Shown here: piece after piece, positions 28,548 to 34,029 of the stretch
Position numbering within the stretch: position 1 is the first letter of the stretch
How the letters are laid out: each line of letters starts with the position of its first letter
From: Marivibrio halodurans
GTDB taxonomy: Bacteria > Pseudomonadota > Alphaproteobacteria > UBA8366 > Aestuariispiraceae
Direction of reading: 5' to 3'
Assembly: GCF_017963645.1 (NCBI RefSeq)
Contig: NZ_JAGMWN010000010.1
Location: 1-64,000 of the forward strand
Length of the DNA stretch: 64,000 nucleotides
Notes under the pieces: model-generated
What the model saw: the letters and a program-made list of their open reading frames with translations, nothing else
Told to the model about the DNA's origin: nothing
The model's database searches: none
Made by a program: the position numbers and the translations under genes

Positions 28548-29252
28548 ATGTTGCGGGTAAGCGGCCTCGATTGCGGCTATGGGCGCACGCCGGTGCTGCG
28601 CGATTTCGCCTTGAGCGTCGAGGCGGGCGAGATCCTCTGCCTGCTGGGTCGCAACGGCGCGGGCAAGACGACCGCGATGAAGGCGATCATGGGGTTGCTG
28701 ACGCCCAGCGCCGGCACGGTCGAGATCGACGGCGTCGATATCGCGCGCCTGCCGGCGGAGGCGGCGCCGCGCCACGGCCTCGGCTATGTGCCGCAGGGGC
28801 GGCGGCTCTTCGCGGACCTGACGGTGGCGGAGAATCTGGAGATCGGTCTGATGGCGGGCCACGGGCCGGAGGGGCCGCGGCGCGAGTCGGCGCTGGAATT
28901 GTTCCCCGTGCTGCGCGAGCGCCTGGACCAGCGCGCGGGCACGCTGTCCGGGGGGGAGCAGCAGATGCTGGCGATCGCCCGCGCGCTTTGCCTGGAGCCG
29001 AAGGTCCTGTTGCTGGACGAGCCGACGGAGGGTCTGATGCCCGCCATGATCGCGCGTATCCGCGCGGTCGTCACCGCGCTGAAGGGGCAGGGCGTGGCGA
29101 TCCTGCTGGTCGAGCAGCGGGTCGACGCGGTGATCGAGATCGCGGACCGTGTCCTCTTCGTCGAGAACGGACGGGCACGCGATACCTTACCCGCCGCCGC
29201 GCTCAAAAACCGGCCCGATCTGCTGGAGCGTTATGTCGGGGTGGGCGACTGA
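28548..29252 (+). CDS. livF: ABC importer ATPase, LivF type
   Basis: The 234-residue ATPase has Walker A GRNGAGKTT, signature LSGGEQQMLAIARAL, Walker B LLLDEPTEGLMPAM and the LivF-specific GLGYVPQGRRLFADLTV. The ATG at 28548 is preferred over a TTG at 28512 because GGGGGAG lies about 10 nt upstream and because the family normally begins at this point (MLRVSGLDCGYG). It is the last gene of the importer operon, 113 bp before the histidine kinase gene. Confidence 0.92.
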   Translation: MLRVSGLDCGYGRTPVLRDFALSVEAGEILCLLGRNGAGKTTAMKAIMGLLTPSAGTVEIDGVDIARLPAEAAPRHGLGYVPQGRRLFADLTVAENLEIGLMAGHGPEGPRRESALELFPVLRERLDQRAGTLSGGEQQMLAIARALCLEPKVLLLDEPTEGLMPAMIARIRAVVTALKGQGVAILLVEQRVDAVIEIADRVLFVENGRARDTLPAAALKNRPDLLERYVGVGD

Positions 29253-29365
29253 CCGCCGAAAGTCCGGCTTTTCATCTTAAAGGTTTGGCAAGAACCCGGC
29301 CCTATGGTGCGCCGCGCTATGCGGGGCCGGATTGGTCGTGTCCCCGCGTGTGTGGGACGAAGACC

Positions 29366-31660
29366 ATGACCGACAAGACCACGGGTTATCCGAAAAATAT
29401 TTATCCCGCCCTGGCGATCGGCGTCAGCTTCGCGGTCGCGATGACGCTGGCCGGGCTGGTCGGCGGTATAGGAAAGGGCGGGGTCGGGGAGCGTGCCGGG
29501 GCGTGGATCGATGTCCTGTCCGGATTCATCGCATCCCACAGCGTGCTGCGCGACGGCCTCCTGGGCCTTATGGTCCTGGTGCTTTTCGGCGTGGTCGTTT
29601 TCCTGCTCCACCGGATCGACCGGATGCACCGTCTCCATCAGGGGGCGCTCGCCCATGTGGAGGCGCTCTACGAGAATTCGCCGGACGGTACCATCAGTGT
29701 CGATGCCGAGGGGCGGATTCTGCGCTGCAACGACGCAACCGTCGCGATGCTCGGCTACCCCCGGCGGGAACTGATCGGCCGTCCGGTCGACAGCCTTGTC
29801 CCGGCGGAGGCGCGCGGCCGGCACGAAGGTTTGCGCCGCGGGTTCTTCGCCGGGAGCGAGAACCGGCTCATGCGGCCGGAGAAGCCCGTGGTAGCGCTTG
29901 CCCGCGACGGTCGCCGGCTGCCGGTGGATATCAGCCTGTGCCGCGCCCGCACGCCGGATGGCGAGGTGGTCATCGCCACCATGCGCGATGTCAGCCAGCA
30001 GCAGCGGATGGTCGAACGGTTGACGGAGGCGACCCGCGCGGCGGAGATCGCCAATCGCACCAAGTCCGATTTCCTGACCAGCGTCAGCCGCGAGATCCGC
30101 GCGCCGCTCAACGGCGTTCTGGACATGATGACGTTGATCGAGCGCGAGCCCCTGTCGCGTTCCGTGCGCGAGAAGGTGCGCAGCGCGGAGGAATCCGGTG
30201 CTTTTCTCCTGGCGCTCATCAATCAGCTTGAGGATTTCGCCGCCATAGAGGCGGGACATGTCGAGATGCGCGAGGAAGCGTTCGATCTTACCGCGATGCT
30301 CGACGGGTTGCATGCGATGTTCTCGCCGCCCGCGCGGGAGAAGGGTCTCAACCTCGATATCCGCGCGGTGCCGTCCGATCCGCCCACGCTGATCGGTGAC
30401 TACACCCATATCCGGCAGGTGATCTTCAATCTCCTCGGCAATGCGGTCAAATTCACCGATACCGGGAGCGTGCGGCTGGAGACGACGCTCAGCCTGTCCG
30501 ACGGGGCCGATGCCGGCATGTTGAGCTGCACCGTGCGCGACAGCGGCCCGGGAATCGCCGCCGGCGCGGTTAATACCATCTTTGAGAGGTTCGCCCAGAC
30601 GGAGGAGGGGCGTAAGCGTGGCGGCACCGGTCTCGGCCTCAGCATCTCCCGGGATCTGGCGGAGCGCATGGGAGGGCATCTTACCGTGACCTCCACCCCG
30701 GGTGTCGGCAGTCTCTTTACCCTGACCCTGCCGATCCGGCGTGCCAACGGAAGCGCGCTCCGCCCCGTCGATGGCGAGACCGACGCCAAGCCCGAGGCGC
30801 CCAGTACTTCGCCCAGTACTTCGCCCAATACTTCGCCAACCACATCGCCGGTCGATTCTTGCGCCAGACCGTTGCGAATCCTGGTGGCGGAGGACAATAG
30901 CGTCAATCAGGTCGTCATTGCCTCCATCCTGCGGCGGGAAGGGCACGACGTCGAGGTGGTCAATGACGGACGCCTGGCGCTCGACCGCGTCGGCGCGGCC
31001 GAGGCCGGGGACGAATCCGGCCTCGATATTTTGCTGATGGATATCCGGATGGCGGAAATGGACGGTCTTGCCGCTACCCGGGCGATCCGCGGGATCGGCG
31101 TTCCGGCGGAACGCCTGCCGATCATCGGTCTGACGGGACAGGACGATCCGGACGCGCACGCGCGCTATGTGGAGGCCGGCATGCAGGACGTGCTGACGAA
31201 GCCGTTGCGGGTGGCCGACCTGCGCGAGGCCATCGCCCGGAACATGCCCGCAGCCGTTCCGTCCATGCACGTCGCGTCCGGCCGGGATGCGGAGGACGCC
31301 GCGACCCTGATCGACCGGAATATCGTCGATCAATTGATCGAGACGCTTCCGACCGACCGGATGCGCGCCCTGATGGCGCGTTTGGGCGGCGAGACGGATC
31401 GCCTCGCCGCCATCCTGCGTGCGCCGGAGAGCGATCTCGGGGCCCGGCGGGCGGCGGCGCACGAATTACGCGGCATGCTGGGGAATTATGGGCTCGACGC
31501 GGCGGCGCTGTGCGCGGCGCGGTTCGAGCGCGTCGGGATGAGCCGGAACGAGCGGGAGAAGGAAGCCGCGCGTCTGGTCATGCTCGCCCTGCGCGGCATC
31601 ACGGCGATCGAGGCGTTGCTGGACGCGCCCGCCGATGCCTCTACCGGGTCGGCGCGATAG
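29366..31660 (+). CDS. Hybrid sensor histidine kinase with Arg in place of the H-box His (HK-REC-HPt)
   Basis: The 764-residue membrane kinase has two transmembrane helices (about residues 13-34 and 62-82), a PAS domain (~95-215), HisKA (~230-295), HATPase_c (~335-460; N box NLLGNAVKF, DSGPGIA, GGTGLGLSI), a repeat-containing linker, REC (~505-625; phospho-acceptor Asp559 in LLMDIRM, Lys in LTKPL) and a C-terminal HPt (~660-755; His699 in AAHELRG). The H-box reads SREIRAPLNG instead of SHEIRTPLNG: residue 242 is Arg (CGC at 30089-30091), one transition away from CAC His. So the ATPase, REC and HPt look intact while the canonical autophosphorylation site is absent. The 3' end overlaps the hemerythrin gene by 20 bp, convergently. 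The stimulus is unknown. Confidence 0.92.
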   Translation: MTDKTTGYPKNIYPALAIGVSFAVAMTLAGLVGGIGKGGVGERAGAWIDVLSGFIASHSVLRDGLLGLMVLVLFGVVVFLLHRIDRMHRLHQGALAHVEALYENSPDGTISVDAEGRILRCNDATVAMLGYPRRELIGRPVDSLVPAEARGRHEGLRRGFFAGSENRLMRPEKPVVALARDGRRLPVDISLCRARTPDGEVVIATMRDVSQQQRMVERLTEATRAAEIANRTKSDFLTSVSREIRAPLNGVLDMMTLIEREPLSRSVREKVRSAEESGAFLLALINQLEDFAAIEAGHVEMREEAFDLTAMLDGLHAMFSPPAREKGLNLDIRAVPSDPPTLIGDYTHIRQVIFNLLGNAVKFTDTGSVRLETTLSLSDGADAGMLSCTVRDSGPGIAAGAVNTIFERFAQTEEGRKRGGTGLGLSISRDLAERMGGHLTVTSTPGVGSLFTLTLPIRRANGSALRPVDGETDAKPEAPSTSPSTSPNTSPTTSPVDSCARPLRILVAEDNSVNQVVIASILRREGHDVEVVNDGRLALDRVGAAEAGDESGLDILLMDIRMAEMDGLAATRAIRGIGVPAERLPIIGLTGQDDPDAHARYVEAGMQDVLTKPLRVADLREAIARNMPAAVPSMHVASGRDAEDAATLIDRNIVDQLIETLPTDRMRALMARLGGETDRLAAILRAPESDLGARRAAAHELRGMLGNYGLDAAALCAARFERVGMSRNEREKEAARLVMLALRGITAIEALLDAPADASTGSAR
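30800..30847 (+). repeat. 12-bp tandem repeat in the kinase linker
   Basis: CCCAGTACTTCG occurs twice (30800-30811, 30812-30823), followed by CCCAATACTTCG and the degenerate CCAACCACATCG. They encode STSP-STSP-NTSP-TTSP between HATPase and REC. The period of 12 keeps the frame, so copy number can vary without harm. Confidence 0.85.
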
Positions 31661-32171
31661 CCGCGGACCCGACCGAGGGGCCGAGCAGCATGTCTCGTTC
31701 GACCGCGACCTGACGGCGCAGATTACCGAACAGCCCGCGCAGCATGTAGCCGGTCGCCTCCTTCTCGGCCCGGCCGGTGCACAGACCCCATTCCATGAGG
31801 ACCTCGGCGACTTCCTCGGCGAAGCCCTCGTCCTCGCGGTGCTCGTGTGAAAGCCGGGCCAGCATGTCCTCTATCCGGGGTGTGGCGCCGAGCCGCGCCC
31901 GGACGGCGGGAAACAGGCGATCCTCCTCGAAGCGATGGGCGGCCCGGAGCGCCGGGACCAAAATCCGCGCGATGCCGAGGCATTCGGCGATGTCGATCCC
32001 GTCGGGTAGCGAATCCGCGATCCGCTCCAGCCGGTCGCACAGGCTCAATAGGCGGGCATGGTGTCCCTGCGTCACCTCGACGATATCGTCCCATCGCGCG
32101 CCTGGCAGGGTTGGCGGAATCGGGATTTCCGCCCGGTGAAAGTGGTGCTCCGGCTCGCCCTGCGTCGTCAT
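31641..32171 (-). CDS. Hemerythrin-like (HHE) domain protein
   Basis: The 176-residue soluble protein has the hemerythrin/HHE cation-binding pattern: His in TQGHHARLL (about residues 33-40), [13 protein letters not shown] (HxxEE type, ~80) and [11 protein letters not shown] (~112), enough ligands for a diiron site. The ATG at 32171 has GAGGAAA about 10 nt upstream. Such proteins bind O2 or NO or respond to iron/oxygen stress. It is divergent from ccoN, and the FNR/FixK-type box between them could regulate both. Its 3' end overlaps the kinase gene by 20 bp. Confidence 0.85.
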
Positions 32172-32289
32172 GGTCGGTGTTTCCTCGAACGCTATGGCCT
32201 CGAACGGTCCGAAATTGAGCGTCGTCGCCCTGGCCTTTCCATCCAACCGGCCTTTCCACCCAAAATGTCGCGGCTGGCGACGGCGTTCG

Positions 32290-32303
32290 TTGATCTCGAT
32301 CAA
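32290..32303 (+). promoter_or_regulatory. FNR/FixK-type anaerobox
   Basis: TTGATCTCGATCAA is a perfect match to the TTGATnnnnATCAA consensus of FNR/FixK/Anr regulators. It lies 77 bp before the ccoN start and 119 bp from the divergent hemerythrin start. It predicts low-oxygen induction of the cbb3 oxidase, as is known for ccoN operons in Rhodobacter and rhizobia; that the same box also acts on the hemerythrin gene is inference. Confidence 0.85.
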
Positions 32304-32379
32304 GGACGGCATCGGAAACCGGCGGCATGGTCGGATCGCTCCGGGCCATGTCCGGCCCCGACGATGCGAGGTGGAGACA

Positions 32380-34029
32380 ATGAACCAAGCTGCTCAGGTG
32401 ATCGCCGTGGCCGCGGCGGCGCTGCTCGCGCTGTTCGGCGCGGCGCTCGGCCGCGATCCGCTCTTCCAGGCCCATGCCTGGATTCTGTTCTTCGTGCTGG
32501 TCGCGGCATCCTATCTGCTGCTTCAGCGCAAGCCGGCGGAGGCCGCGGCCATCCCGTTCAAGGGAGCGACCACGAAATCCGGGGACGCCGTGTCGGCGGC
32601 ACCGGCCTATCTGGACGGGCCGATCCGCTATGGCGCGGTCGCGACGGTGTTCTGGGGAATCGCCGGGTTCCTGGTCGGCGTGGTGATCGCCGCCCAACTG
32701 GCTTGGCCGAACCTGAACCTCGAACCCTATCTGAATTTCGGCCGGCTGCGTCCGCTGCACACCTCGGCGGTGATCTTCGCCTTCGGCGGCAACGCGCTGA
32801 TCTGCACCAGTTTCTGGGTGGTGCAGCGGACCAGCCGCCAGCGGCTGTTCGGCGGCGATCTCGCGTGGTTCGTCTTCTGGGGTTATCAGCTCTTCATCAT
32901 CATGGCGGCGACGGGCTATCTGCTCGGCGTCACCCAATCGCGCGAATATGCGGAGCCCGAATGGTACGTCGATCTCTGGCTGACCATCGTGTGGGTCGCC
33001 TATCTGGTCGTCTTCCTCGGCACCATCATGACCCGGCGCGAGCCGCATATCTATGTCGCCAACTGGTTCTATCTCAGCTTCATCGTGACCGTCGCGATGC
33101 TGCATGTGGTGAATAATCTGGCGCTGCCGGTCTCGCTGATGGGGGTGAAGAGCTATTCCCTCTTCGCCGGGGTGCAGGATGCGCTGACCCAATGGTGGTA
33201 CGGGCATAACGCGGTCGGCTTCTTCCTGACGGCCGGGTTCCTCGGCATGATGTACTATTTCATGCCGAAGCAGGCGGAGCGGCCGGTCTATAGCTACCGC
33301 CTCTCCATCGTCCATTTCTGGTCGCTGATCTTCCTCTACATCTGGGCCGGGCCGCATCACCTGCATTATACCGCGTTGCCGGACTGGGCGCAGACGCTGG
33401 GCATGGTGTTCTCGGTCATGCTGTGGATGCCCAGCTGGGGCGGCATGATCAACGGGCTGATGACCCTGTCCGGCGCCTGGGACAAGGTGCGCACCGATCC
33501 GCTCATCCGCATGATGGTGATCGCGCTCGCCTTCTACGGCATGTCGACCTTCGAGGGGCCGATGATGTCGATCAAGTCGGTCAACTCGCTCAGCCACTAT
33601 ACCGACTGGACCATCGGGCACGTGCATTCCGGCGCGCTCGGCTGGGTCGGCATGATCAGCTTCGCGGCGATCTACTATCTCGTGCCGAAGCTTTGGGACC
33701 GCAGCCGGCTCTACAGCCTGCGCATGGTCAACTGGCACTTCTGGCTCGCGACGCTGGGCATCGTGATCTACGCGGCCGTCATGTGGGTCTCCGGCATCAC
33801 CCAGGGCCTGATGTGGCGGGAATACGACCAGGAAGGCTTCCTCGTCTATTCCTTCGCCGAGACGGTGGCCGCCATGCATCCCTACTACGCGATGCGGGTC
33901 TTCGGCGGGCTGCTCTATCTGGCGGGCGCCCTCGTCATGGCCTTCAACATCTACCAGACCATCCGCGGCCGGCAACGCCAGGAGCGCCCGCTCGTCACCG
34001 CCGCCACCGCCGCGCAGCCGGCCGAGTAA
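32380..34029 (+). CDS. ccoN: cbb3-type cytochrome c oxidase subunit I
   Basis: The 549-residue membrane protein is the catalytic heme-copper subunit. It shows the low-spin heme ligand region [15 protein letters not shown], the CuB histidines in [11 protein letters not shown] and GPHHLHYT, and the later [17 protein letters not shown] carrying heme b and b3 ligands. An N-terminal extra helix pair ([18 protein letters not shown]) precedes the ~12-helix core. RBS GAGGTGGAG lies just upstream of the ATG. First gene of the ccoNOQPGHIS cluster; reduces O2 with high affinity. Confidence 0.97.

Follow-up and report, generated by a model that had tools for sequence, protein, structure and literature searches.

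A sensor kinase of Marivibrio halodurans with Arg at the phospho-acceptor site: a probable pseudo-histidine kinase retaining its ATPase motifs and its REC and HPt phosphorylation residues

Kinases of the HisKA type autophosphorylate on the histidine of their H-box, and the gene described here raises the question of what such a protein can do once this residue has been replaced: whether its function is lost, or whether it has been kept for the sake of its other domains. The gene lies in a 64,000-nt stretch of Marivibrio halodurans DNA (assembly GCF_017963645.1, contig NZ_JAGMWN010000010.1), hereafter called the window; this genome and contig are referred to below as G000 and C1. The H-box of the encoded protein, FLTSVSREIRAPLNGV, has Arg as residue 242. 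An initial annotation of the window had read it as SREIRAPLNG, with Arg242 in place of the acceptor His, and this reading was correct to the base, while the open reading frame, its coordinates and the positions of Asp559 and His699 had also been rightly placed (Table 1).

The frame is uninterrupted across its 764 codons, with a GC3 of 0.74-0.87 along the gene and of 0.87-0.90 in four neighbour genes. HisKA, HATPase_c and REC each scored over their Pfam cut-offs; the Hpt match (aa 677-739) reached 21.7 bits in the protein scan, below the cut-off of 24.6, and 26.4 bits, above it, in the genome search. The order HisKA-HATPase_c-REC-HPt is that of the unorthodox hybrid kinases. The whole protein was modeled with AlphaFold2 (mean pLDDT 78.2, pTM 0.42); domain packing was left uninterpreted, and the linker region between CA and REC (aa 464-499) was of low confidence.

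Table 1. Features of the kinase gene, with positions in the window (aa, residues of the protein; relatives, the 29 homologous kinases that were read).
Feature	Position	Strand	Remarks
Kinase gene, TM-PAS-HisKA-HATPase_c-REC-HPt	29366..31660	+	764 aa + stop, ATG start
N-terminal membrane region running into PAS	29366..29653	+	predicted helices aa 13-34, 44-103 (low confidence before aa 60); hydrophobic stretches by eye
PAS, aa 97-209	29654..29992	+	Pfam PAS 59.9 bits
HisKA (DHp), aa 233-297, degenerate	30062..30256	+	Pfam HisKA 30.8 bits
Thr238 in place of Ala	30077..30079	+	Ala in 28/29 relatives
Arg242 (CGC) at phospho-acceptor His site	30089..30091	+	His in 29/29 relatives
Ala246 (GCG) at conserved Thr of HisKA phosphatase activity	30101..30103	+	Thr 28/29, Ser 1/29 relatives
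Asp253 (GAC) in place of Gly	30122..30124	+	Gly in 29/29 relatives
Glu289 (GAG) in place of Leu, DHp helix 2	30230..30232	+	Leu in 28/29 relatives
HATPase_c (CA), aa 344-458	30395..30739	+	Pfam 98.2 bits
CA-REC linker repeat: short direct repeat encoding STSP/NTSP/TTSP units	30800..30850	+	by eye
REC, aa 505-623	30878..31234	+	Pfam Response_reg 75.0 bits; Asp559 codon 31040-31042
HPt, helices aa 663-753	31352..31624	+	four predicted helices; His699 codon 31460-31462

Two activities are usually attached to the DHp domain, and the residues needed for both have been replaced. Self-phosphorylation at H1 is not expected of a protein with Arg242 where all 29 relatives have His, as the initial annotation had supposed. 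Thr or Asn four residues past the His is reported to be needed for the phosphatase activity of CrdS and of other HisKA kinases (PMC3510030), and the T428A change in the HExxT motif of RetS to abolish phosphatase activity (PMC5992135); the kinase has Ala246 at this position. With neither the acceptor His nor the phosphatase Thr present, the two classical DHp activities are not expected. From established HisKA chemistry, we infer that the protein would be unable to autophosphorylate at H1 and would not be a classical transmitter phosphatase, and we hold the loss of H1 chemistry with high confidence. A phosphatase role had been among the options of the initial annotation; in the ordinary HisKA sense it falls, the required Thr/Asn being Ala246, and because His and Thr are missing it would need another route, such as back-transfer via HPt and REC, through which a drain of phosphate is still possible. 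The changes T246A, G253D, L289E and A238T had not been recorded in that annotation.

The damage was concentrated in DHp. Conserved columns were defined as those with the same residue in 28 or all of the 29 relatives, which gave 48 columns, and the kinase departs at seven of them: A238T, H242R, T246A, G253D and L289E in DHp, and P563A and A591G in REC. This amounts to 5/13 columns in DHp, 0/19 in CA and 2/16 in REC (Fisher, DHp versus CA, p = 0.0064; DHp versus CA and REC together, p = 0.011), values to be taken as indications given the few columns and the related sequences. When the relatives were treated likewise, the next worst departed at 3/14 columns in DHp, four had one departure and 24 of the 29 had none. 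Since four more DHp columns conserved at this level are changed besides the acceptor, the condition of DHp cannot be put down to a single base.

Leave-one-out profile scores, for which 15 relatives could be used in HPt and 24 in PAS (the remainder being without that segment), gave a graded picture: the HisKA of the kinase was the lowest of 30 (z -4.3), with helix 1 at z -5.0 and helix 2 second lowest, REC was third lowest of 30 (z -1.9), CA sixth lowest (z -1.3), and HPt ninth lowest of 16 (z -0.1). Pfam scores followed the same pattern, with 30.8 bits for HisKA versus 65.3, 67.0, 75.8 and 63.3 in four clade-mates, and 98.2 bits for HATPase_c versus 95.3, 99.5, 89.9 and 96.9 in the same four. 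The CA motif positions Asn355, Asn359, Asp392, Gly394, Gly396 and Gly420/422/424 are kept, and the residues of the N, G1, F and G2 boxes are conserved. REC keeps Asp510, Asp559, Thr590 and Lys612, with Pro563 changed to Ala and Ala591 to Gly. His699 is the sole invariant column across 13 aligned HPt segments, and the model puts it inside one of the four helices. The HATPase, REC and HPt motifs had been described as intact, and this was borne out for the 19 CA columns and for the phosphorylation residues, the two REC replacements being the addition to be made.

The origin of the Arg residue was sought among the relatives. A search over 59 genomes returned 42 matches besides the query, of which the 29 with loci (L002-L030) were read and the 13 without loci left out; these 29 come from 21 genomes, the kinase's own among them. 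The nearest (L002, genome G010) is 44% identical and has the H-box SHEIRTPLNG. A tree from which DHp helix 1 was left out placed the kinase with six of these relatives (support 98/97), in a bootstrap that had not fully settled and with the exact sister not fixed; all six have His at the site and belong to the same taxonomic family. Because all clade-mates and relatives carry His, Arg is derived in the lineage of this kinase. The initial annotation had held that Arg found only in this assembly, with His in every orthologue, would point to an error or a strain mutation. Taken literally, this is what was found, but the relatives compared are at most 44% identical. Neither the family (14 genomes) nor the order (43 genomes) held anything nearer than L002, and 385 genomes drawn evenly from the class, at an E limit of 1e-95 and with two candidates per genome scored among the matches listed, gave nothing nearer either. 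A scan of contigs for closer orthologues gave 14 distant loci only, the best by E-value being 35% identical over aa 210-630, and 17 plasmid records held relatives at 33-37%, none closer. The sister species (G001) showed no orthologue at such a level: L006, its best match, groups with another kinase of G000. Its ABC-transporter ATPase and ccoN genes are found on separate contigs, where they adjoin genes for a beta-eliminating lyase and a Crp-type regulator.

The other kinases of the same genome offer a second comparison. Among its 36 HisKA matches, 34 have His at the site (L088 and L093 among them), one has Tyr (L074) and one, the present kinase, has Arg. Four residues further on, the residue in 34 of the 36 rows is Thr (22), Asn (5), Ser (3), Ala (2), Gln (1) or Gly (1), the second Ala being that of L092, a HisKA match below the family cut-off. 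The Tyr bearer L074 (G000:C22:114407-114610; SYELRSPL) supplies the positive control, a pseudo-kinase of known type, because it has several PAS matches and DivL (4q20) as its best PDB match. Its good HisKA match (63.3 bits) and weak HATPase_c match (49.1 bits) are the mirror image of what is seen in the Arg242 kinase.

A partner was also looked for. Contig C1 (120,807 bases) holds no HisKA or REC match besides those of the kinase itself. Near the kinase gene lie an operon for a branched-chain/urea-type ABC transporter and a locus with hemerythrin and cbb3 oxidase genes, which give a faint hint of low oxygen and nitrogen limitation as cues. The hemerythrin-domain frame (31641-32312, minus strand), beside the cbb3 oxidase genes, is convergent with the kinase gene, and their 3' ends overlap by 20 bases. 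A scan of 29150-32450 for sigma-70-like promoters, which carries little weight in DNA of this kind, gave no hit. The genome as a whole has 45 REC and 8 Hpt matches, and only one other frame in it has both HisKA and Hpt matches: a frame of 1219 residues on the minus strand of contig C11, with HisKA at 618136-618333, two REC, Hpt at 616435-616632 and a canonical H-box (L060), adjoined by a REC frame (C11:615702-616037). By architecture alone, this frame is a candidate partner.

On balance, we find it moderately probable that the protein is a long-standing pseudo-histidine kinase, selected for its other domains and working via another hybrid kinase. A catalytic residue has been lost while the fold, as predicted, is kept. 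By analogy with RetS and RcsD, phosphate would pass between it and another hybrid kinase via Asp559 and His699, and the protein would probably work only together with another sensor kinase. These two residues would take phosphoryl groups from the partner and hand them to a response regulator, or the flow may be reversed, draining from the regulator through HPt and REC to water. How the kinase engages its partner may be set by input from PAS and the membrane, along with the ATP state of CA. That CA is intact points to one of two roles: the kinase may phosphorylate in trans the His of its partner in a heterodimer, or CA may have an ATP-dependent conformational role. The initial annotation had offered both a phospho-sink and reliance on a kinase in trans, and each agrees with the retention of the residues of REC, HPt and the ATPase domain, so that both are kept here as possibilities. 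Against this reading as a long-standing pseudo-kinase are to be counted the lack of a linked partner and of a sister-species orthologue, the REC changes P563A and A591G, and the low REC and helix 2 scores. Another arrangement, which we regard as fairly unlikely, is a split sensor kinase, in which the CA domain would be fully conserved because it phosphorylates the His of another kinase in an obligate heterodimer, and the phosphate would return to its own REC and HPt; neither protein would then signal without the other, and the C11 frame would be the candidate partner.

The most serious competitor, a minority possibility with a real if limited chance, is that the gene is an early pseudogene, whose function was lost in this lineage and whose decay has struck DHp first. 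The sister species has neither the orthologue nor the same neighbourhood, so that the Arg form cannot be shown to be conserved and the gene may be in early decay; this form occurs in only one of the genomes searched, no partner is linked to it on C1, and the poorly scoring DHp and the two changed columns of REC point the same way. Neutral decay, however, should not leave CA untouched while altering 5/13 columns in DHp, and all 764 codons are open, with coding GC3 throughout, no CA column lost, and His699, Asp559, Asp510 and Lys612 kept. The open frame, the GC3 and the retained CA, REC and HPt phosphorylation residues favour a kept pseudo-kinase over a pseudogene, as judged from the sequence of one genome, which is not proof.

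A role like that of DivL, in which the protein would signal by binding a regulator or a kinase and REC/HPt phosphotransfer would be irrelevant, appears improbable to us. DivL itself has Tyr at the acceptor site (Ala in one species) and, reportedly, no kinase or phosphatase activity (PMC4211667), and the presence of L074 in the same genome indicates that such signaling exists in the organism's kin. Yet DivL is reported to bind ATP weakly (PMC4211667) and L074 has a weak HATPase_c and a good HisKA, the opposite of the Arg242 kinase, which moreover keeps the REC and HPt phosphorylation residues that such a role does not need. A sequencing or assembly error, or a very recent A-to-G change in the His codon of an otherwise working kinase, is quite improbable: CAC to CGC is indeed a single transition, at a site that is His in every relative, but A238T, T246A, G253D and L289E in the same domain are left unexplained by one error. 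The recent one-base loss put forward by the initial annotation is thus not upheld for the domain, while the Arg codon by itself may still have arisen at the level of the strain. As for autophosphorylation on another DHp residue, it is hardly conceivable, the hairpin having no other His and the nearest, His298, lying beyond the modeled helix 2 (aa 265-295).

Comparison with known systems places the kinase more precisely. TorS, BarA, ArcB and GacS are unorthodox hybrids with the same order of HisKA, HATPase_c, REC and HPt; the NCBIfam models for TorS, BarA and ArcB ranked among its best matches, although each score fell far short of the cut-off, and the GacS core (7z8n) was a PDB match both by sequence (third of four) and by fold (rank 11). 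It differs from these hybrids in having neither the phospho-acceptor His nor the phosphatase Thr. Pseudo-kinases are a known kind, to which DivL, RetS and RcsD belong, and a dead DHp with an intact ATPase is a variant of it. To our knowledge, Caulobacter DivL is without REC or HPt, both of which are present here, and RcsD is without a working REC. RetS of Pseudomonas aeruginosa is described as having no autophosphorylation, its REC taking phosphoryl groups from the HisKA His of GacS, whose autophosphorylation it inhibits (PMC5992135); its core (6dk7) was a fold match of the kinase. RetS, however, keeps its HExxT H-box and an active transmitter phosphatase and has a degenerate HATPase (PMC5992135), which is the reverse pattern. 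DivL, in Caulobacter and other alphaproteobacteria, shares a non-His acceptor site (PMC4211667), but it has Tyr versus Arg, several PAS domains versus one and weak ATP binding versus an intact CA, and L074 is the better DivL candidate. RcsD is reported to sit in the membrane and to combine PAS-like, HATPase and HPt parts, with the HPt relaying phosphate from RcsC to RcsB, and to possess an ABL domain (PMC7418988); its likeness to the kinase is by description. MA_type 2 kinases (RdmS) of Methanosarcina acetivorans, which are without an H-box, are reported to bind and hydrolyse ATP with no autophosphorylation under fully reducing conditions (PMC11784639). They differ in being archaeal and cytosolic and in having no H-box region, and Tyr phosphorylation had been reported earlier for them under oxidising conditions (PMC11784639). 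A search of openly licensed papers gave no report of a hybrid kinase with an Arg H-box among the matches listed, which is not proof of absence.

In RetS and DivL, it is the ATPase that is degenerate or the binding of ATP that is weak, whereas here the acceptor and phosphatase residues are gone and ATPase, REC and HPt are intact. The kinase thus offers a natural test of whether an ATPase half and a REC-HPt half are still of use to a kinase whose H1 site no longer works. It also calls for caution against annotating this gene as an active sensor kinase. The case is that of one gene in one genome.

The genes around the clade-mates were inspected for a response regulator shared among them, and no conserved partner emerged; by eye, no response regulator was seen near L007 in genome G004. 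Around L002, REC-only genes were found, two confirmed by Pfam and two more by eye. L002 sits in a conjugative-type island (L054, G010:C16:41001-60000), with a T4SS-type ATPase, a coupling protein, an ArdC-like protein, a relaxase and a serine recombinase. Two kinases of the query's clade occur close together on opposite strands, convergent, in each of genomes G011 (L094) and G009 (G009:C1:460436-464402); the pairs are L003/L024 and L004/L025, and L003 and L024 have 5TM-5TMR_LYT N-termini. Because clade-mates pair up in these two genomes, joint action of such kinases is plausible in the group. One relative, L022 (G010:C2:12815-14683), has a single TAG inside the matched stretch and is possibly a broken gene.
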